64,000 bases of DNA, from the NCBI RefSeq assembly GCF_040744945.1, contig NZ_CP160453.1:682001-746000 (forward strand), given 5' to 3'. Made by a program: the position numbers and the translations under genes. The DNA is from Saccharothrix sp. HUAS TT1 (GTDB taxonomy: Bacteria; Actinomycetota; Actinomycetes; Mycobacteriales; Pseudonocardiaceae). Positions within the stretch are counted from its first letter, which is position 1. Every line of letters starts with the position of its first letter. This document shows, one piece after another, positions 5,730-16,883 of this stretch. The notes below the pieces were generated by a model that did no database searches, had not been told where the DNA came from, and saw nothing but the letters and a program-made list of their open reading frames with translations.

Positions 5730-5825
5730 ATGACCACCGAGCCCGAGAAGCGCCCCTGGGTCAAGCCGGATTTCCGGGACGTCGACACCCCGATGGAAGT
5801 CACCGCCTACGCGGCTCGCGGCTAG
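5730..5825 (+). CDS. pqqA: PqqA, PQQ precursor peptide
   Basis: A 31-codon ORF with a strong GAGGAG ribosome binding site 6 nt upstream of ATG. The peptide contains WVKPDF near the N-terminus and the diagnostic E-x3-Y motif, MEVTAYAARG, with Glu23 and Tyr27. In PQQ biosynthesis these two side chains are cross-linked by PqqE and become the cofactor skeleton. It is followed immediately by pqqC, D, E and B on the same strand. No pqqF-like protease is in the window, so another peptidase must release the cross-linked dipeptide. Confidence 0.95.
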   Translation: MTTEPEKRPWVKPDFRDVDTPMEVTAYAARG

Positions 5826-5914
5826 CCACCCCGCCGCGCTCGGCCGAGGTCCCGCGCCGGTGCGGCCGGGTGCGGGCCGGGCGCGGCGCCCGCGAACCGA
5901 GAGGTGCCCTGCCC

Positions 5915-6607
5915 GTGGTGCTCACCCACCCGCTGTTGACCCCGTCCGAGTTCACCGCGCGGCTGCGCGGGCTGGCGCACCGCTACTGGGACCGCCACCC
6001 GTTCCACCTGCGGCTGCACGAGGGCGGGCTGGGCAAGGACGAGCTCCGGCTGTGGGCGGCCAACCGCTGGTACTACCAGCAGGCCATCCCGCGCAAGGAC
6101 GCCGCGATCCTGGCCAACTGCGCCGACGTCGAGGTCCGCCGGGCGTGGCGGGAGCGGATCGTCTGGCACGACGGCAGCGGGCCGGGCGAGGGCGGCGCGG
6201 AGGACTGGCTGCGGCTGGCCGAGGCCGTCGGGCTGACCCGCGACGAGGTGCTGGACGAGCGGCACGTGCTGCCGGGCACGCGGTTCGCCGTGGACGCCTA
6301 CGTGACGTTCGCCCGCACCCGGCCGTGGGTGGAGGCGGTGGCGTCCGGGCTGACCGAGATGTTCTCCCGCGGCCTGATGGCGCGCCGGCTGGTGGACATG
6401 CGCGAGCACTACCCGTGGATCGCCGAGGAGGGCTTCGCCTACTTCACCGCCAGGCTCCGGGTGATCGCCGACGAGGGGAGGTCCACGTTGGACATCGTGG
6501 TCGGCCACTGCCGCACGCGCGAGCAGCAGGAGGCGGCGGTCGCCGCGCTGGCGTTCAAGTGCGACGTGCTGCGGGCGGTGCTGGACGCCGTGGACTACTA
6601 CTCGTGA
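5915..6607 (+). CDS. pqqC: PqqC, pyrroloquinoline-quinone synthase
   Basis: A 230-residue cofactor-independent oxidase that performs the last ring closure and oxidation of PQQ. Family landmarks include a LTPSEFTARLR N-terminus, NRWYYQQAIPRKDAAIL, and late helices with FAYFTARL and HCRTREQQEAAV. The start is GTG 5915 (the adjacent GTG 5918 is equally possible) with GAGAGG about 10 nt upstream; the open frame also reaches 5870, but that extension is Arg/Gly-rich and lacks the family N-terminus. The length is close to the usual ~250 residues. Confidence 0.95.
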   Translation: MVLTHPLLTPSEFTARLRGLAHRYWDRHPFHLRLHEGGLGKDELRLWAANRWYYQQAIPRKDAAILANCADVEVRRAWRERIVWHDGSGPGEGGAEDWLRLAEAVGLTRDEVLDERHVLPGTRFAVDAYVTFARTRPWVEAVASGLTEMFSRGLMARRLVDMREHYPWIAEEGFAYFTARLRVIADEGRSTLDIVVGHCRTREQQEAAVAALAFKCDVLRAVLDAVDYYS

Positions 6608-6609
6608 CG

Positions 6610-6637
6610 GGTCGCTCATGACAGGTCGCTCATGACA
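6610..6637 (+). repeat. 14-bp tandem duplication forming a micro-ORF before pqqD
   Basis: The 14-mer ggtcgctcatgaca occurs twice in tandem (6610-6623 and 6624-6637). The first ATG (6618) opens a five-codon ORF (MTGRS) whose TGA overlaps the second ATG (6632), the pqqD start. The arrangement could couple translation of pqqD or be a neutral duplication. Confidence 0.6.
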
Positions 6638-6901
6638 GGGCTGAACGCGGTGCCGCGCCTGCGCCGGGGCGTGAAGACGACCTACGACCGGACCCGGGAC
6701 AGCCACGTGGTGCTGTTCCCGGAAGGGGTGCTGGTGCTGAACGAGACCGCGGCGGCGGTGGTCGGGCTGTGCGACGGGCGGACGTCCGTCGAGGGCATCG
6801 CGCGCCGGCTGGCCGAGTCCTTCGACGGGGTGGAGGCGGACGACGTGGCCGAGCTGGTCGGGCGGCTGGTGGCGCGGCGGGTGGTGGACGTCGATGGCTG
6901 A
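6632..6901 (+). CDS. pqqD: PqqD, PQQ peptide chaperone (RiPP recognition element)
   Basis: An 89-residue winged-helix PqqD-like protein. It has the beta-strand segment SHVVLFPEGVLVLNETAAAVVGLCDG followed by the helical SVEGIARRLAESF and DVAELVGRLVARRVV, the standard RRE fold. PqqD binds PqqA and presents it to the radical SAM enzyme PqqE. It begins at the second ATG of a tandem duplication and overlaps pqqE by 8 nt. Confidence 0.94.
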   Translation: MTGLNAVPRLRRGVKTTYDRTRDSHVVLFPEGVLVLNETAAAVVGLCDGRTSVEGIARRLAESFDGVEADDVAELVGRLVARRVVDVDG

Positions 6902-7949
6902 CGCGCCGTTCGGGTTGCTGGCCGAGCTGACCCACCGGTGCCCGCTGCGCTGCGGGTACTGCTCCAATCCGGTGGAGCTGGCCGCGCGGGCCGACGAGCT
7001 GGGCACGGCGCGGTGGTGCTCGGTGTTCGACGAGGCGCGGGCGCTGGGGGTGCTGCAGGTCCACCTGTCCGGCGGTGAGCCGCTGGTGCGCAGGGACCTG
7101 CCGGAGCTGGTCGCGCACGCGTCCGGGTTGGGGTGCTACGTGAACCTGGTGACCAGCGGGCTCGGGTTGACGCCCGACCGGCTGGCGTCGCTGGCGGGGG
7201 TCGACCACGTGCAGCTGTCCGTGCAGGGCGCGGACGAGGCGGGCGCGGACCTGATCGCCGGGGTGAGGGCGTTCGAGCCGAAGCTGCGGGCCGCGCGGGC
7301 GGTCCGGGACGCCGGGCTGCCGCTGACCGTGAACGTGGTGCTGCACCGGCTCAACCTCGACCGGGTGGAGGAGGTCGTCGCGCTGGCGGAGCGGTTGGGG
7401 GCGGACCGGTTGGAGCTGGCCAACACCCAGTACTACGGCTGGGCGCTGCGCAACCGGGCGGCGCTGCTGCCGACCCGGGAGCAGCTGGCGCGGGCGGGGG
7501 AGGTGGTGGCGGCGGCGCAGGCGCGGTCGGGGATGGAGATCGTGTACGTGATCGCGGACTACCACGAGGCCCACCCGAAGCCGTGCATGCACGGGTGGGG
7601 TGCGCGGCAGTTGACCGTGGCGCCGAACGGCGACGTGCTGCCGTGCCCGGCGGCGGGGGTGATCGAGGGGTTGGGGGTGGAGAACGTGAAGGAGCGGTCG
7701 TTGGCGGACATCTGGCACTCGTCGGCCGCGTTCAACGCCTTCCGGGGCTTCGAGTGGATGCGCGACCCGTGCCGGTCTTGTGCGCGGAGGGAGGTGGACT
7801 TCGGGGGGTGCCGGTGCCAGGCGTTCCAGCTGACGGGTGACGCGGCGGCGACCGACCCGGTGTGCACGCTGTCGCCGGACCACGGGTTGGTGGAGGCGAT
7901 CCTGGCCGGGGCGGGTGCGGAGGTCGAGCACCGGGCCGTGGTGCGGTGA
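6894..7949 (+). CDS. pqqE: PqqE, radical SAM PqqA cross-linking enzyme
   Basis: A 351-residue radical SAM/SPASM protein. The radical SAM [4Fe-4S] motif is CPLRCGYC (Cys16, Cys20, Cys23), followed by the GGEPL motif. The C-terminal SPASM region carries cysteines in CPAAGVI, DPCRSCARRE, GGCRCQAF and PVCTLSPDH for auxiliary clusters. PqqE forms the C-C bond between the Glu and Tyr of PqqA bound to PqqD. It overlaps pqqD by 8 nt and its stop overlaps a GTG that opens a small ORF. Confidence 0.95.
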   Translation: MADAPFGLLAELTHRCPLRCGYCSNPVELAARADELGTARWCSVFDEARALGVLQVHLSGGEPLVRRDLPELVAHASGLGCYVNLVTSGLGLTPDRLASLAGVDHVQLSVQGADEAGADLIAGVRAFEPKLRAARAVRDAGLPLTVNVVLHRLNLDRVEEVVALAERLGADRLELANTQYYGWALRNRAALLPTREQLARAGEVVAAAQARSGMEIVYVIADYHEAHPKPCMHGWGARQLTVAPNGDVLPCPAAGVIEGLGVENVKERSLADIWHSSAAFNAFRGFEWMRDPCRSCARREVDFGGCRCQAFQLTGDAAATDPVCTLSPDHGLVEAILAGAGAEVEHRAVVR

Positions 7950-8173
7950 GTGCCGCTGACCGGGCTGCTGTCCGGGCTGCTGTTGCGGGCTCAGTAGCGA
8001 AGACAGCATCGCTAGAGCCGAAAGAAAATCTAGCAGCGCTAGCAATCAGAGCACCGACAGCGGCGGTGGCGGTGGCGGTGACCGGGAGCGTGGTGAAGCT
8101 AGCAATGCTGGTAACCAGAGCGCCGATAGGGCTGATAGCAGTGACAGCGCCGGCAGCGGGGGTGGCGCGGTGA
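7946..8173 (+). CDS. small low-complexity ORF between pqqE and pqqB (uncertain)
   Basis: A 75-codon ORF starts at GTG 7946, overlapping the pqqE stop, and ends in TGA overlapping the pqqB GTG at 8170. Both ends thus have the tight coupling typical of real genes here. The product is Ala/Val-rich with two imperfect internal units (LAALAIRAP... and LAMLVTRAP...). Codons are unlike the rest of the window: four CTA plus ATA, AAA, TCA and GTA, with visibly lower GC. The pqqB frame is also open upstream of pqqB from 7960 and would encode a Ser/Gly/Asp-rich linker, but it has no usual start codon. It could be a peptide, a translation-coupling spacer or a remnant; I assign no function. Confidence 0.4.
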   Translation: MSAADRAAVRAAVAGSVAKTASLEPKENLAALAIRAPTAAVAVAVTGSVVKLAMLVTRAPIGLIAVTAPAAGVAR

Positions 8174-9036
8174 AGGTGATCGTGCTCGGCACGGCTGCCG
8201 GTGGTGGGGTGCCGCAGTGGAACTGCGCGTGCGGGCCCTGCGAGGCCGTGCGCGCCGGTGTCCTGCTCGCGCGCACCCAGGACGCGCTGGCCATCACCGC
8301 CGACAACGCGAACTGGTGGCTGGTCAACGCCTCACCCGACCTCGGCGCACAGCTCACCGCCACCCCCGCCCTGGCGCCCGGTCCCGGCCCGCGCGACACC
8401 CCGATCCGCGGCGTCCTGCTCACCGACGCCGAACTCGACCACACGCTCGGCCTCCCGATCCTCCGCAACGCGCCGACACTCCAGGTCCACGCCCCCGCCA
8501 ACGCCCTGCGCGCCCTCTCCCCCACCCGCGCCACCCTCGACACCTACGGCGAGTGGTCCTGGCACCAGGTCCAACCCCGTCAACCGTTCCACCTCACCGG
8601 CCTGGAGATCACCGCCTTCCCGATCAGCGGCAAGCACCCCCGCTACGCCACCGCGTCACCCGGCCCCTGGGTGGTCGCCTACCGGTTCCGCGACCCGGCC
8701 ACCAACGGCGTGCTGCTGTACGCGCCGTGCCTGGCGTCCTGGCCTTCGAACTTCAGCGCACTGGTCGACGAAGCCGACGTGGTGCTGCTGGACGGCACGT
8801 TCCACGCCCCCTCGGAGATGGGCGCGGCCACCGGCAAACAGCTCGGTCAGGCCGCGATGGGCCACCTGCCGATCACCGACAGCCTGGCCGAGCTGCGCGC
8901 CCACCCGTCGACCCGGCGGATCTACACCCACCTCAACAACACCAACCCGGTGCTGGACCCGACGTCGCCGGAGCGCGCCGGGATCACCGCGGCGGGCGTC
9001 GAGGTCGTCGCGGACGGCACGGTGATCGACGTCTGA
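8170..9036 (+). CDS. pqqB: PqqB, metallo-beta-lactamase-fold PQQ biosynthesis protein
   Basis: A 288-residue protein with the family-diagnostic N-terminus MKVIVLGTAAGGGVPQWNC, paired Cys residues (CACGPC) and an MBL-fold core with DAELDHTLGLPIL. PqqB is an Fe(II)/oxygen-dependent hydroxylase acting on the Glu-Tyr-derived dipeptide intermediate. It starts at GTG 8170, overlapping the stop of a small low-complexity ORF. It is the last gene of the operon here; pqqB placed after pqqE is a reordering compared with the classical A-B-C-D-E order. Confidence 0.94.
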   Translation: MKVIVLGTAAGGGVPQWNCACGPCEAVRAGVLLARTQDALAITADNANWWLVNASPDLGAQLTATPALAPGPGPRDTPIRGVLLTDAELDHTLGLPILRNAPTLQVHAPANALRALSPTRATLDTYGEWSWHQVQPRQPFHLTGLEITAFPISGKHPRYATASPGPWVVAYRFRDPATNGVLLYAPCLASWPSNFSALVDEADVVLLDGTFHAPSEMGAATGKQLGQAAMGHLPITDSLAELRAHPSTRRIYTHLNNTNPVLDPTSPERAGITAAGVEVVADGTVIDV

Positions 9037-12670: not shown

Positions 12671-12735
12671 CCGGCACGGGCGCGCGCGTCGTGTTCACCC
12701 AGCGGATGGGTGAAGTCATTGCGGCGCGCCGAACG

Positions 12736-12809
12736 TGCCCCCGACGGGATTCGAACCCGTACTGTGACTCTTTTAAGGAGCCTGCCTCTACCGGTTGGGC
12801 TACGGGGGC
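12736..12809 (-). tRNA. class I-shaped tRNA with UAA anticodon (tRNA-Leu-like, atypical)
   Basis: The 74-nt sequence folds into a cloverleaf: 7-bp acceptor GCCCCCG/CGGGGGC with discriminator A, a 3-bp D stem (GCC/GGC) with an 11-nt loop containing GG, a 5-bp anticodon stem (GGCTC/GAGTC), loop CTTAAAA, a 5-nt variable region and a 5-bp T arm with loop TTCGAAT. The anticodon is therefore TAA, reading UUA (Leu). Bacterial tRNA-Leu normally has a long variable arm; this one does not. T(-1) could pair with A73, extending the acceptor to 8 bp. CCA is not encoded. It lies 87 nt downstream of the SagB-type gene on the same strand, so it could be part of that transcript. Confidence 0.8.
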
Positions 12810-12896
12810 AGCGGGGAGCCTAAGCCGTTACCGAGCGTTCGTGGGGCCGGTTCACAAGAAGTCCCCCGCACGGCTCAATGCGATCCGCTATTGCGC

Positions 12897-13967
12897 TCAT
12901 TCGGGTAATGGACCCAAGGCGCTCAGGCCAAGTACAACTTCGTGATAAGCGTCACAGCCGAGTGCTTGTTCGACCAGCTCATCCCGCAATGCTGCGGTGA
13001 AGCCGATACCAAAACCCATTGCCGTAGCAACCAGATAAGCCGTTTGGGACAGGTGGCCCACGTCCATTTGCACAACGCGGTAAGCACGTGACGTGTCGTA
13101 ACGCCACCTGGTCCGTTCGAGGACGCCGGTGTACGCGAGGACCAACGGAGCCTGTCCCACCCACTCCTGGTCACCGGCCGCCGCGGCCATCTCGGCCGGT
13201 GTCCACGTCACCCCTATGGGCTCAAGCGCGTGCGCGAGCCCGTTGTAGTGGTACCAGCCGTGCTCCAGCGGCTCGACGCCGCGCACGTGCGCGTACAGCT
13301 CCACCGGGTGCCGCCCGCCGCCGGACGGGCTGGTCTTGAACACCGTGCCGGACCGCCCGATCCGCGACCGCACCGGCGAGGGGCCGCCCAGCACGGCCAG
13401 CAGCTCGGCGACCTTGGTCAGCGGCAGGGGCCCGGGGCCGAACTCGCGGGTCGTGCGGCGGGACAGCAGCACGTCGAGCAGGCCCGCCCCGGCCCACTTC
13501 GAGGAGCCGTCCAGGCGCGGCAGCAGCACGGCGGTGCGGCCGAGGCTGCGGAACGGCGCGGGCGGCGGTTCGGCGACCAGCTTGGCGTCCAGGGCCGCGT
13601 CGTGCTCGGCCGACGCCTGGTACGGCGCGTCGGCGAGGGTGCGGCTGGCGAAGTGGAAGTGCCGCGCCGACGTGCCCCAGTCGCGCCAGCCGGCCAGCAG
13701 CCTGCGCTCCCGCTCGTGCTCGGGCGAGCCCTCGACGATCAGCACGCCCGCCTCGACCAGCTCGTCCAGCACCCCGCGCAGCGCCACCCGGTCCGGCTCG
13801 GCCAGCGGCGCCAGCATCTCGTCCACGTCGGTGAACTCGGTGAACTTGCGGCACAGCAGCTCGGCGGTCTCGCTGATCGCGAACTGGCGGTGGTGCAGGT
13901 AGTCGTCCCAGACCACGGCGCCGTCCTGGTAGAACAGCGTCGCGTGCTCAGCGACCTTTGCCCGCAC
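12897..13967 (-). CDS. SagB/ThcOx-type FMN oxidoreductase with N-terminal RRE-like domain
   Basis: A 356-residue protein starting at GTG 13967, overlapping the ATP-grasp gene by 20 nt. Residues ~150-356 are a nitroreductase-fold ThcOx domain with SRRTTREF (169-176), the SPSGGGRHPVE motif (213-223) and a VQMDVGHLSQTAYLVATAMG helix near the C-terminus. Such enzymes use FMN to oxidise azolines or otherwise dehydrogenate peptides in RiPP pathways. Residues ~10-80 look like a PqqD-type winged helix (ATLFYQDGAVVW..., ISETAELLCRKF, LDELVEAGVLI), a plausible precursor-binding element. No YcaO cyclodehydratase is in the window, so a classical azole route is not supported. Confidence 0.82.
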   Translation of the reverse strand: MRAKVAEHATLFYQDGAVVWDDYLHHRQFAISETAELLCRKFTEFTDVDEMLAPLAEPDRVALRGVLDELVEAGVLIVEGSPEHERERRLLAGWRDWGTSARHFHFASRTLADAPYQASAEHDAALDAKLVAEPPPAPFRSLGRTAVLLPRLDGSSKWAGAGLLDVLLSRRTTREFGPGPLPLTKVAELLAVLGGPSPVRSRIGRSGTVFKTSPSGGGRHPVELYAHVRGVEPLEHGWYHYNGLAHALEPIGVTWTPAEMAAAAGDQEWVGQAPLVLAYTGVLERTRWRYDTSRAYRVVQMDVGHLSQTAYLVATAMGFGIGFTAALRDELVEQALGCDAYHEVVLGLSALGPLPE

Positions 13968-15066
13968 CCAGGAGCTCCTTGAAGCGCGCCGCCACCCACT
14001 CGTGCACGGCCTCCGACACCCGCGAGTCCCGCGCCCGGTGCTCGAACCAGCGCCAGTCGCAGTTGACGTTGACCTCCAGGAACACGTGGTCGCCGCCCGT
14101 GACCAGCAGGTCGAACGCGGCCACCTGCAACCGCCAGTGCCGGGCCAGCGCGAGCAGCCGGTCGGTCAGCCCGGCGGGCACGTCGACGGGCGTGACCCGG
14201 ACCGCCTCCGGGTCCACCCACAGCTGCGCCGGGTCGAGCTTGTCCACCTGGAACGCCAGGCACCGCTCGCCGACCACGAACACCCGCAGCTCGGTGTCGG
14301 ACGGCACGTACTCCTGCACGATCACCGGCGCGGACTCGGGCACGTCACCGGACCGGCTGGTCTCCAGCGGGCGCGGGAACAGGCCGTGCTGCATGCCGGG
14401 TCGCGGTTCCAGCAGGTGCCGGCCGGAGGTCTTGACGATGCACCGCCCACCGCCGGGCCGGGTGCGACCGGGCCGGGTGGTGACGGTGGTGCGCGGCACC
14501 CGCAGGCCGAACGCGGCCGCGTCGGCGAGCTGCGTGAGCCGGTTGAGGTGGGAGGTGTTGCGGCTGGGGTTCACGTGCGACCAGTCGGACCGGCTGGACA
14601 GCCAGTCGGCGACCGCGCCCCACTGGTCGACGGCGTACGCGCCGGCCAGCGTGCCAGGCTCGTGCGGCAGCGCGGAGAGCTCGAAGTGCCTGCGCCACAC
14701 CAGCAGGGGGCGCAGCAGCCAGCGGTCCAGCTCCAGCAGCGGCTGGTCGGTGTAGACGGTCAGCGGCAGGTCGGCGGAGCGGTCGGCGTCGATGCGGGCC
14801 ATCCGGATGCCGCGCTCGGCCAGGGCGATGGAGAGCTCGTTCATCTCCATGTCGGCGGCGCGGGCGAGGACCAGCACGCAGGGCACGGGGCTGCCGTCGC
14901 CCTCGTCCACCATGCCGAGGCGGTGCACCTGCTCCTGGAAGTCCAGGCACTTGGGCTGCGACCGGAAGAGGTAGTCCTGGCCTTGGAGCAACAGCGGGGG
15001 CGGTTTCGCCGGTCTGGCGGCCTCGGGTGGGGGAACGGTCTCGTTCCCCCACCCGGAGACGGTCAT
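13948..15066 (-). CDS. MvdD/graspetide-type ATP-grasp ligase
   Basis: A 372-residue ATP-grasp protein. It contains CIVKTSGRHL, VIVQEYVPSDTELRVFVVG (ATP-clamp region) and the metal-binding LEVNVNCDWRWFE (330-342), closely patterned on MvdD/TgmB-like RiPP ligases (usual form LEVNPNGQWxW). These enzymes phosphorylate peptide carboxylates and form ester or amide links. The ATG at 15066 lies 3 nt after the stop of the 40-aa peptide gene. Because a 14-bp hairpin covers codons ~4-14 and the conserved fold begins near residue 60, ATG 14913 (Met52) is an alternative start. The SagB-type gene overlaps its 3' end. Confidence 0.82.
   Translation of the reverse strand: MTVSGWGNETVPPPEAARPAKPPPLLLQGQDYLFRSQPKCLDFQEQVHRLGMVDEGDGSPVPCVLVLARAADMEMNELSIALAERGIRMARIDADRSADLPLTVYTDQPLLELDRWLLRPLLVWRRHFELSALPHEPGTLAGAYAVDQWGAVADWLSSRSDWSHVNPSRNTSHLNRLTQLADAAAFGLRVPRTTVTTRPGRTRPGGGRCIVKTSGRHLLEPRPGMQHGLFPRPLETSRSGDVPESAPVIVQEYVPSDTELRVFVVGERCLAFQVDKLDPAQLWVDPEAVRVTPVDVPAGLTDRLLALARHWRLQVAAFDLLVTGGDHVFLEVNVNCDWRWFEHRARDSRVSEAVHEWVAARFKELLGAGKGR
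15024..15055 (-). terminator. strong hairpin between peptide gene and ATP-grasp coding region
   Basis: A 13-bp perfect inverted repeat (15025-15037 with 15042-15054), extended to 14 bp by 15024/15055, with a 4-nt loop. On the minus strand it begins 14 nt after the stop of the 40-aa peptide gene and lies within the first codons of the annotated ATP-grasp ORF. It has no U-tract. Position suggests partial termination or mRNA stabilisation that raises peptide over enzyme expression. Confidence 0.6.
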
Positions 15067-15069
15067 GGC

Positions 15070-15192
15070 TCAGTCGTCTTTCTTGCTGCAAAAACGCTTT
15101 TCGGCGGTGGCGTACTCCGCGGAGTACTCCGCCAGCGCACGATCCTCGATCTCACCGCGGCGAAGCTGTGCGGCCAGCTCCTCGAGAGACAT
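15070..15192 (-). CDS. putative RiPP precursor peptide (40 aa)
   Basis: A 40-codon ORF from ATG 15192, preceded by GAGAGGTGA. The N-terminal half reads MSLEELAAQLRRGEIEDRAL, a charged amphipathic helix typical of leader peptides. The C-terminal half reads AEYSAEYATAEKRFCSKKDD, with two SAEY/LAEY-like units, one Cys, several Lys/Ser/Thr and an acidic end. These side chains could accept Glu/Asp carboxylates in a graspetide-type reaction. Three nucleotides separate it from the ATP-grasp gene. No family name is known to me; the core boundary and modified residues are unknown. Confidence 0.75.
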   Translation of the reverse strand: MSLEELAAQLRRGEIEDRALAEYSAEYATAEKRFCSKKDD

Positions 15193-15248
15193 CGCGGTCA
15201 CCTCTCTCCCCACTGATGCATCACACATTCAGGCGATACACCAGCTGT

Positions 15249-15277
15249 ATTCTCGGGTTCACGTTACGCAATGTCAA
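15249..15277 (-). promoter_or_regulatory. near-consensus sigma-70-type promoter for the peptide cassette
   Basis: Reading the minus strand, a perfect TTGACA (15277-15272) is followed after exactly 17 bp by GAGAAT (15254-15249). This places transcription start near 15242, about 50 nt upstream of the peptide ATG. The region is more AT-rich than its surroundings. The -35 match is exact, which is uncommon in such high-GC DNA. Confidence 0.65.
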
Positions 15278-15387: not shown

Positions 15388-16713
15388 TCAGCTCTTGGTG
15401 GCCCGGTCGAACTCCGCCTTCGGCTCGTGGATCTGGCCGAGGGCGACGACCTCGCGGCCCGAGAACAGCGCCTGCGTCCAGTCCACGAACACCCGGAACT
15501 TGCGGTTGACCGTCGGCATGAACATCACGTGGTAGCTGCGGTGCATGAACCAGGCGACGACGCCCTTGAACCGCAGGCCGAACACGTCGGCCACGCCCTT
15601 GTACAGGCCGAGGCCCGCGACCGAGCCCAGGTACTTGTGCTCGTAGTCCTTGGGCTGGCGACCGCGCAGCGTGGCCACGATGTTGCGGGCCAGCAGCTTG
15701 GACTGGCGGATGGCGTGCTGCGCGTTGGGCACGCAGGTCGCCGTCGGGTCCTCCTCGGTGCGCGAGAGGTCCGGCACGGCCGAGCAGTCACCCGCGGCCC
15801 ACACCCCCGGCAGGCCGACGACCTGCATCGCGGCCGTGCAGCGGACCCGGCCGCGCTCGTCCAGCGGCAGGTCGGTGTCGCGCAGCATCGGGTTGGCCTT
15901 CATGCCCGCGGTCCAGATGATGGTGTCCGAGTCGAACTCGGTGCCGTCGTCCAGGACGACGTGGCCGCCCTCCATGCTCTTGACGCGGGTGTCGAGGTAG
16001 CACTTGATGCCGCGCTTCTCCAGCTGCTCGACGGTGTAGACGCCGAGCCGGGCGCTCACCTCGGGCATGATCCGGCCGGTGGCCTCGACCAGCACCCAGT
16101 GCATGTCCGACTGCTTCAGGCCCTCGTAGTAGCGCAGCGCGTAGCGGGCCATGTCCTCCAGCTCCGCCAGCGTCTCGATGCCCGCGAAGCCGCCGCCGAT
16201 GACGACGAAGCTCAGCAGGCGCTTGCGCAGCTCCGGGTCGTTCGTGCTGGCGGCCTGGTCGAGCCGCGACAGCACGTGGTTGCGCAGGTAGATCGCCTCG
16301 CCGATGGTCTTCATGCCGATGCCGACCTCGGGCAGGCCCGGGATGGGCAGCGTGCGCGAGATCGCGCCGAGGGCCGAGACCAGCACGTCGTACTCGTACT
16401 CCTCGACGTGGCCGTCGGCGAGCTCGACCGTGACGGCCTTGCGCTCGTGCTCGATCCGGGTGGCGCGACCGGTGACGACGTGGCAGCGCTTGAGGACCTT
16501 GCGCAGCGGCACCACGACGTGCCGGGGCTCGATGGAGCCGGCCGCCGCCTCGGGGAGGAACGGCTGGTAGGTCATGTGGGGCTGGGGGTCGATCACCGTG
16601 ACGGACGCCTCGCCGGAACGCAGCTTCTTCTGCAACCCCAGCGCGGTGTACATGCCGACGTACCCACCGCCGACGATCACGATCCGTGTGGGTTGCGACT
16701 TCACAGCAGCCAT
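15388..16713 (-). CDS. ndh: type II NADH dehydrogenase (NDH-2)
   Basis: A 441-residue flavoprotein. The FAD-binding Rossmann motif is VIVGGGYVGMYTALGLQKK near the N-terminus, the NADH-binding motif is VVIGGGFAGIETLAEL in the middle, and the third FAD motif is VWAAGDCSAVPDL. A C-terminal amphipathic segment with several Trp/Phe (VVAWFMHRSYHVMF, VDWTQALFSGR) fits membrane-surface attachment. It oxidises NADH and reduces quinone without pumping protons. ATG 16713 is chosen because homology starts within a few residues. Confidence 0.93.
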   Translation of the reverse strand: MAAVKSQPTRIVIVGGGYVGMYTALGLQKKLRSGEASVTVIDPQPHMTYQPFLPEAAAGSIEPRHVVVPLRKVLKRCHVVTGRATRIEHERKAVTVELADGHVEEYEYDVLVSALGAISRTLPIPGLPEVGIGMKTIGEAIYLRNHVLSRLDQAASTNDPELRKRLLSFVVIGGGFAGIETLAELEDMARYALRYYEGLKQSDMHWVLVEATGRIMPEVSARLGVYTVEQLEKRGIKCYLDTRVKSMEGGHVVLDDGTEFDSDTIIWTAGMKANPMLRDTDLPLDERGRVRCTAAMQVVGLPGVWAAGDCSAVPDLSRTEEDPTATCVPNAQHAIRQSKLLARNIVATLRGRQPKDYEHKYLGSVAGLGLYKGVADVFGLRFKGVVAWFMHRSYHVMFMPTVNRKFRVFVDWTQALFSGREVVALGQIHEPKAEFDRATKS

Positions 16714-16883
16714 ACACACATGGTCGCACCGGGCGGGCCGTTCCGGCGCATCGAGCGGGCCCGTTGTGACCACAGTCGCCGGGTGATTGCCGACACGCAG
16801 CCGCTGACCTGCGCTCGGAGGTGAACGTGCTGAGAGGAACGATCCAGAGGCTCAGCTCGGGCTGAGCCGGCGGGCCCGGTTCC

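Follow-up and report, generated by a model that had tools for sequence, protein, structure and literature searches.

The closest described relatives of the system treated here are the branch-6 ATP-grasp enzymes surveyed by Makarova et al. (2022; PMC8939145). According to the accessible text of that survey, no precursor was found at most branch-6 loci, the exceptions being clusters 367 and 1115, which are distantly related, mostly lie beside a SagB-like enzyme and lack the usual leader motif; other branch-6 loci hold SPASM, TfuA, adenylate cyclase and type III polyketide synthase (PKS) genes. We analyzed a locus resembling these in a 64,000-nucleotide stretch of the genome of Saccharothrix sp. 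HUAS TT1 (NZ_CP160453.1, positions 682,001 to 746,000; hereafter the window). The host belongs to the Pseudonocardiaceae, and the closest named database protein among the matches listed, 97% identical, is from Saccharothrix saharensis. Between 12735 and 15192, the minus strand of the window carries genes for a 40-residue peptide ending in KKDD, an ATP-grasp enzyme and a SagB/ThcOx-type oxidoreductase (ThcOx), together called the cassette here, followed by tRNA-Leu(UAA) (Table 1). The peptide and its two likely modifying enzymes probably constitute a genuine peptide-modification system, conserved to an unusual degree in a family of soil actinobacteria.

Like branch 6, the locus combines an ATP-grasp enzyme with a SagB-like nitroreductase, and cluster 1115 is without a GG motif, as is the KKDD type (accessible text of PMC8939145). 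Very likely, cluster 1115 corresponds to the KKDD peptide and cluster 367 to the CKGCHGG peptide of the sister type described below. The original prediction for this DNA had proposed an undescribed pathway for a ribosomally synthesized and post-translationally modified peptide (RiPP); on the point of novelty it was anticipated, since the accessible text of the survey already predicts precursors beside ATP-grasp and SagB genes in branch 6. The same text is silent, for clusters 367 and 1115, on the KKDD tail, the host family, the tRNA/NDH-2 site, the ThcOx losses and the exporter. The accessible main text of a 2026 graspetide survey (PMC13097080) contains neither nitroreductase nor SagB nor Pseudonocardi-, and none of the open-access papers that our searches listed joined graspetides with Pseudonocardiaceae or ThcOx, KKDD with graspetides, or CKGCH with ATP-grasp. 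As far as our searches show, the pathway is of a kind predicted earlier but uncharacterized. What we add concerns the build, occurrence and history of the pathway, namely the fixed core, the largely vertical descent, the insertion site, the ThcOx losses and the acid-free core of the sister type.

The locus shares with graspetides (microviridin, plesiocin and the SAV_5884 group) the ATP-grasp fold and a small upstream precursor, but it falls below the NCBIfam cut-offs, lacks the Ser/Thr-Asp/Glu ring pattern and has a near-invariant rather than variable core, with no transporter recognized beside the KKDD type. The oxidoreductase has the flavin mononucleotide (FMN) oxidase fold of ThcOx, BmdC and McbC, including the invariant W and Y of the W[RK]Y motif, and a predicted N-terminal domain like the RiPP recognition element (RRE), as in ThcOx and BmdC; however, it has neither a YcaO nor a non-ribosomal peptide synthetase partner in the locus, and an azoline substrate is impossible in some cores. 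The RiPP cofactors pyrroloquinoline quinone (PQQ) and mycofactocin likewise have a short fixed precursor, vertical conservation and an RRE, but the KKDD cassette contains no radical SAM gene and a cofactor role is unsupported by evidence.

A near-invariant peptide beside a graspetide-type ligase

The ATP-grasp protein used as a query gave some match in 56 of 99 genomes (its own included), and an ATP-grasp profile at E 1e-20 matched 112 of 390 genomes of the family, 110 with the ortholog and two (G339 and G376) with the sister type. We examined 109 of the 110 genomes with a KKDD-type match, excluding a contig stub (G035); the loci span 18 genera of one family, the Pseudonocardiaceae. P0118, of frame-shifted appearance, is included in A1 and omitted from A2, and the truncated ThcOx of L128 is omitted from A5. 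At all 109 loci a peptide frame lies upstream of the ATP-grasp gene at the equivalent position (108 scripted, L182 read manually), ending in KKDD at 108 and in RKDD at one (L149). The four elements of the window have the coordinates and spacings originally given for them, and homologous peptides beside the same enzymes, on whose existence elsewhere the original prediction had staked itself, do occur at other loci.

The window's peptide (MSLEELAAQLRRGEIEDRALAEYSAEYATAEKRFCSKKDD) follows a common build, with a helical N-terminal leader, MS[LI]xELA...[DE][YF]xx[DE]Y, and a C-terminal core, (F)R(S)KKDD, which here reads FCSKKDD. Searches against Pfam and NCBIfam gave sub-threshold matches only. 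Across 25 genomes of the genus the ratio of nonsynonymous to synonymous variation (pN/pS) is 0.18 (pS 0.222, pN 0.039), eight codon positions varying in sense and ten silently; the peptide is under purifying selection. Immediately 5' of its ATG (15192) lies GGAGAGAGGTGA, and the TTGACA of the promoter-like block further upstream, correctly recognized at the outset, is matched without change in 18 of the 21 upstream regions aligned, which come from distant genera (exceptions L042, L043 and L047); past it the block is less conserved, the rest being best kept among nearer relatives. The same site at all loci, the low pN/pS and the retained TTGACA argue that the peptide frame is more than chance.

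The peptide gene is also kept at the DNA level, with 93 of 123 nucleotides invariant in the 25 congeneric genomes, which suggests an extra RNA or DNA constraint. Such high conservation of the whole peptide and of its DNA would also suit a role outside RiPP biosynthesis, the peptide staying unmodified and either regulating the ATP-grasp enzyme as a small subunit or mimicking its substrate. We consider this unlikely in view of the precursor-like build and of the related leaders that bear two distinct fixed tails, each with an ATP-grasp enzyme and partly with ThcOx.

The ATP-grasp enzyme has the graspetide-synthetase fold and is a ligase of the MdnB/MdnC/PsnB kind, with a conserved N-terminal segment LLLQGQDY..R...LDFQE. 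Macrocyclases are nearest to it by fold and sequence, and RimK, ArgX and LysX are its next structural neighbours. In some congeners (L055, L034-L036) the open frame comprises 571-725 codons and extends far upstream of the conserved start.

Table 1. Position in the window of the cassette, its flanking genes and the PQQ cluster (window 5730-9036)
Feature	Position	Strand	Remarks
Precursor peptide gene (putative), 40 aa	15070..15192	-	ATG at 15192, stop at 15070
ATP-grasp ligase, graspetide-synthetase group, 372 aa	13948..15066	-	3 nt past peptide stop
SagB/ThcOx-type FMN oxidoreductase, 356 aa, predicted N-terminal RRE-like domain (~1-78), optional part	12897..13967	-	Overlaps ATP-grasp gene by 20 nt
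tRNA-Leu(UAA), neighbour only	12735..12809	-	87 nt beyond ThcOx; Rfam: 12736-12809
Promoter-like block TTGACATTGCGTAACGTGAACCCGAGAATAC	15247..15277	-	TTGACA at 15277-15272
NDH-2-like pyridine nucleotide-disulphide oxidoreductase, upstream flank of insertion site	15388..16773	-	PF07992; PF22366 NDH2_C slightly below cut-off
pqqA-like 31-aa open reading frame	5730-5825	+	PQQ cluster
PqqC	5870-6607	+	PQQ cluster
PqqD	6632-6901	+	PQQ cluster
PqqE-like radical SAM/SPASM	6894-7949	+	PQQ cluster
PqqB	8170-9036	+	PQQ cluster

Sister loci and the bond that the ligase may form

A genome scan retrieved nine loci, seven of the sister type and two at the KKDD site (L135, with a KKDD peptide, and L136, which comprises ThcOx and tRNA-Leu at the end of a contig). 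The sister type is scattered in its distribution, the hosts being Nocardia seriolae, Planobispora siamensis, Pseudonocardia nigra, Rhodococcus ruber, P. thermophila, R. aetherivorans and Hoyosella altamirensis. All seven loci hold a peptide of 51-54 residues, mostly ending in CKGCHGG, an ATP-grasp enzyme and ThcOx (truncated in N. seriolae) in the same order as the KKDD type; a major facilitator superfamily (MFS) gene comes next in six, and none of the seven stretches contains a tRNA. A profile search with both peptide types (E<=10) returned 98 proteins, of which 46 end in KKDD, 50 have a C-x(2-3)-CH tail and two are degenerate. Exactly CKGCHGG are 34 of the 50 tails, and 49 contain neither Asp nor Glu. 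The leaders of the two types are related (hhalign profile comparison, local probability 91, E 1e-6), and when the KKDD profile was used for scoring, five of the seven sister peptides were each equalled or surpassed by only 0-2 of the 1798 shuffles that were scored. Most sister precursors (L128-L134, P0142-P0238) end in CKGCH, which has the form of the c-type haem attachment motif (CxxCH), and one sister-type database entry (P0213) carries the source annotation mono/diheme cytochrome c family protein; the tail hints at metal or haem binding in the sister type.

We put at about even the chance that the cassette is a RiPP pathway centred on an ATP-grasp ligase of the graspetide type, with an amide bond at the core lysine and with ThcOx oxidizing the product in some lineages. 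The 40-residue peptide would be the precursor, divided into the helical leader and the KKDD-ending core described above, and the ATP-grasp enzyme would phosphorylate a core carboxylate and couple it with the conserved lysine in an isopeptide (lactam) linkage. In the KKDD type, whose core holds both acceptor and donor side chains, the lysine would be bonded to the side chain of an Asp or to the C-terminal carboxylate; the latter would also be its partner in the sister type. An amide at the core lysine is favoured because the two cores share only a lysine and a free C-terminus, side-chain acids being general in KKDD only; the C-terminal carboxylate would be the sole donor available to both types, an Asp side chain being the alternative in KKDD. 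If true, a C-terminal lactam would be chemistry outside the classical graspetides, and the sister type raises the question of what a graspetide-type ligase joins when the core holds no acid. Of the RiPP pathway as originally proposed, the set of precursor, ATP-grasp maturase and RRE-bearing ThcOx is supported, while the places given to the tRNA and to ThcOx as an essential part, like the claim of novelty, are not.

Several points weigh against a lactam-forming ligase. In the 49 of 50 C..CH cores without Asp or Glu, the usual side-chain-to-side-chain graspetide bond is impossible; a ring inside KKDD would be very small; and the core has no clear cleavage site. The ATP-grasp enzyme stays below the curated cut-offs of the graspetide maturase models (TIGR04187, 92.2 bits against 350; TIGR04184, 04185 and 04192 likewise). 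The link between the leaders drops to probability 48 in hhalign global mode, against the KKDD profile the sister peptides L129 and L130 do not stand apart, 45 and 110 shuffles respectively reaching their scores, and the degenerate sister matches P0223 and P0224 have no core lysine. The authors of PMC8939145, in its accessible text, thought branch 6 possibly outside the graspetide class.

The lack of an acid in nearly all sister cores would also suit a carrier-peptide pathway, in which the ATP-grasp enzyme attaches an outside molecule and ThcOx oxidizes the attached group, giving a small product or a tagged peptide. The attached molecule might be an amino acid at the C-terminus, as with LysX/ArgX on LysW and RimK on S6, or an acyl group on the core lysine (cf. 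PGM1, pheganomycin). A fixed C-terminus with no variable core fits a carrier better than an antibiotic, RimK, ArgX and LysX are near in structure, and the gene cluster around the more distant relative L109 contains, by eye, type III PKS-, amidinotransferase- and aminotransferase-like genes, as the accessible text of PMC8939145 reports for branch 6. However, macrocyclases are closest by fold and sequence, no small-molecule biosynthesis gene was recognized in the cassette and the sister type has an exporter-like gene; we entertain a carrier only tentatively. The ATP-grasp enzyme has more distant relatives of full length in L109, L110 and L118, where the surrounding clusters are complex and, judged by eye, of type III PKS appearance, with genes for an amidinotransferase, SPASM, TfuA and adenylate cyclase and no obvious precursor; these genes fit the list given for branch-6 loci in the accessible text of PMC8939145.

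For the lactam-forming RiPP pathway, the surroundings of the KKDD cassette suggest a role inside the cell, because by eye no exporter or transporter was recognized beside it, whereas the sister type has an MFS gene. A bolder idea, which we regard as speculative and rather doubtful, is that a RiPP cassette once devoted to secondary metabolism has turned into a fixed pathway operating inside the cell across much of the Pseudonocardiaceae. Its near-invariant product, a cofactor, metal ligand or signal, would carry a C-terminal lactam between the core lysine of the KKDD or CKGCH tail and the C-terminal carboxylate rather than a side chain.

An optional oxidoreductase

ThcOx scores 70 bits against PF00881 and 110 bits against TIGR03605 (cut-off 78.4), and has both a SagB-type domain and the FMN-oxidase fold; the curated score of TIGR04511 (SagB_rel_DH_2) is not reached (160.7 bits against 240). 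For residues 1-78, AlphaFold2 predicts three strands and then three helices (predicted local distance difference test about 78-94), and alignments starting at residue 1 reach two known domains, the peptide clamp of ThcOx (5lq4) and the RRE-like region of BmdC (7ly4). With 5lq4, 314 of 356 residues are aligned, residues 1-356 lying on 115-469, where the peptide clamp occupies residues 87-194. The structure prediction supports an RRE-like domain at about residues 1-78, as had been proposed from the start. Where ThcOx is present, this domain would hold the leader and the FMN would oxidize the product, an azole not being the outcome.

The enzyme had been counted as an essential part, but across the 109 loci it is complete at only 32, a remnant at two (L054 and L211) and not found at 75. 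Two loci (L139 and L153) end at contig ends, where ThcOx is not judgeable; the 107 assessable loci comprise 73 with no trace at E 1e-5, the two remnants and the 32 complete copies, which are spread over seven of the 18 genera. On an ATP-grasp tree of 34 of the 109 loci and five of the seven sister loci, built by a quick method and with long branches among the sister rows, the ThcOx state changes six times, at least five of the changes being forced by well-supported branches. Given the two remnants and the equivalent position of ThcOx in the sister type, repeated loss is the likelier reading. A TTA codon lies third from the end of ThcOx (window 12906-12908, minus strand; codon 354), a short way before tRNA-Leu(UAA), and persists in 27 of the 32 complete copies; it may reflect rare-codon (UUA) control or a DNA element conserved beside the tRNA promoter.

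Membership in the ThcOx/SagB family, the Cys and Ser of the window's core and the Cys of the CKGCH core would all suit a linear azole pathway, with ThcOx dehydrogenating peptide azolines and the ATP-grasp enzyme in place of YcaO. Cys, Ser or Thr occurs within the last 13 residues in 82 of the 108 scripted peptides (none in 26), and at 28 of the 32 ThcOx-bearing loci, the window included. At the other four (L042, L043, L046 and L196) the cores have none, so that ThcOx must there do something other than form core azoles. The window's Cys is replaced by Arg or Asn in congeners, and there is, as originally noted, no YcaO at the locus, the sole above-cut-off match in the genome lying 5.7 Mb away. 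On the grounds of the four cores and the distant YcaO, azole formation was judged unlikely for the KKDD type; a linear azole pathway seems to us very improbable.

Inheritance, insertion site and neighbouring genes

Distances between ATP-grasp proteins agree with those between the NDH-2-like proteins encoded next to the cassette (Mantel r 0.773 over 32 loci, with none of 2000 permutations reaching that value), which argues that the peptide/ATP-grasp pair was mostly inherited vertically, together with its chromosomal neighbour. No KKDD ortholog outside the family was found among 394 genomes of the class besides the window's own, other full-length relatives reaching at most 283 bits. In most natural-product RiPPs the core varies fast and the genes jump between strains; a near-invariant tail over 18 genera with vertical descent is as expected for a product used by the cell itself. 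Database proteins at E 1e-10 numbered 133, and the organisms named for the best 120 of them are, among the matches listed and with one exception, of what we take to be the Pseudonocardiaceae or Pseudonocardiales. They include Saccharopolyspora erythraea, the erythromycin producer, so that a gene knock-out should be feasible. The exception, P0051, is an ATP-grasp protein of 67% identity filed under the alphaproteobacterium Parasphingorhabdus pacifica on a 0.7-Mb contig, possibly a matter of label or assembly, or a transfer.

An NDH-2-like gene lies upstream of the cassette at all 109 loci, and tRNA-Leu(UAA) lies downstream on the same strand at 107, the two misses (L139 and L153) being contig ends. 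This constancy would suit a pearlin-like, tRNA-dependent pathway served by the adjacent tRNA-Leu, and the original prediction had made the tRNA a pathway element. However, the same neighbourhood occurs without the cassette. In 12 of 14 cassette-free members of the family tested the best NDH-2 match adjoins tRNA-Leu(UAA), on the same strand in 11 and on the opposite strand in G027 (the exceptions are G028 and G119), and the pair stands on one strand in G070 and G072, which belong to the same order but to different families. Three genomes of the order (G059, G061 and G065) lacked an NDH-2 match at E 1e-80; of two more distant genomes, G729 has tRNA-Leu(UAA) about 1.2 kb off and G567 has none within the stretch. 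The window's genome holds two further tRNA-Leu(UAA) genes elsewhere, the sister stretches have no tRNA, and no LanB-like peptide aminoacyl-tRNA ligase was recognized by eye near the locus, no profile search having been aimed at one. The tRNA was therefore rejected as part of the pathway, the cassette simply sitting between it and NDH-2, and a tRNA-dependent pathway is scarcely credible.

A dependence of the cassette on PQQ is likewise unsupported, as PqqB is found in 293 of the 390 family genomes and at least ten genomes have the cassette without PqqB (G003, G006, G011, G013, G014, G021, G024 and G099-G101). In the window the PQQ cluster lies about 4-9 kb from the cassette, and pqq genes fall inside the locus stretch at 10 of the 109 loci.

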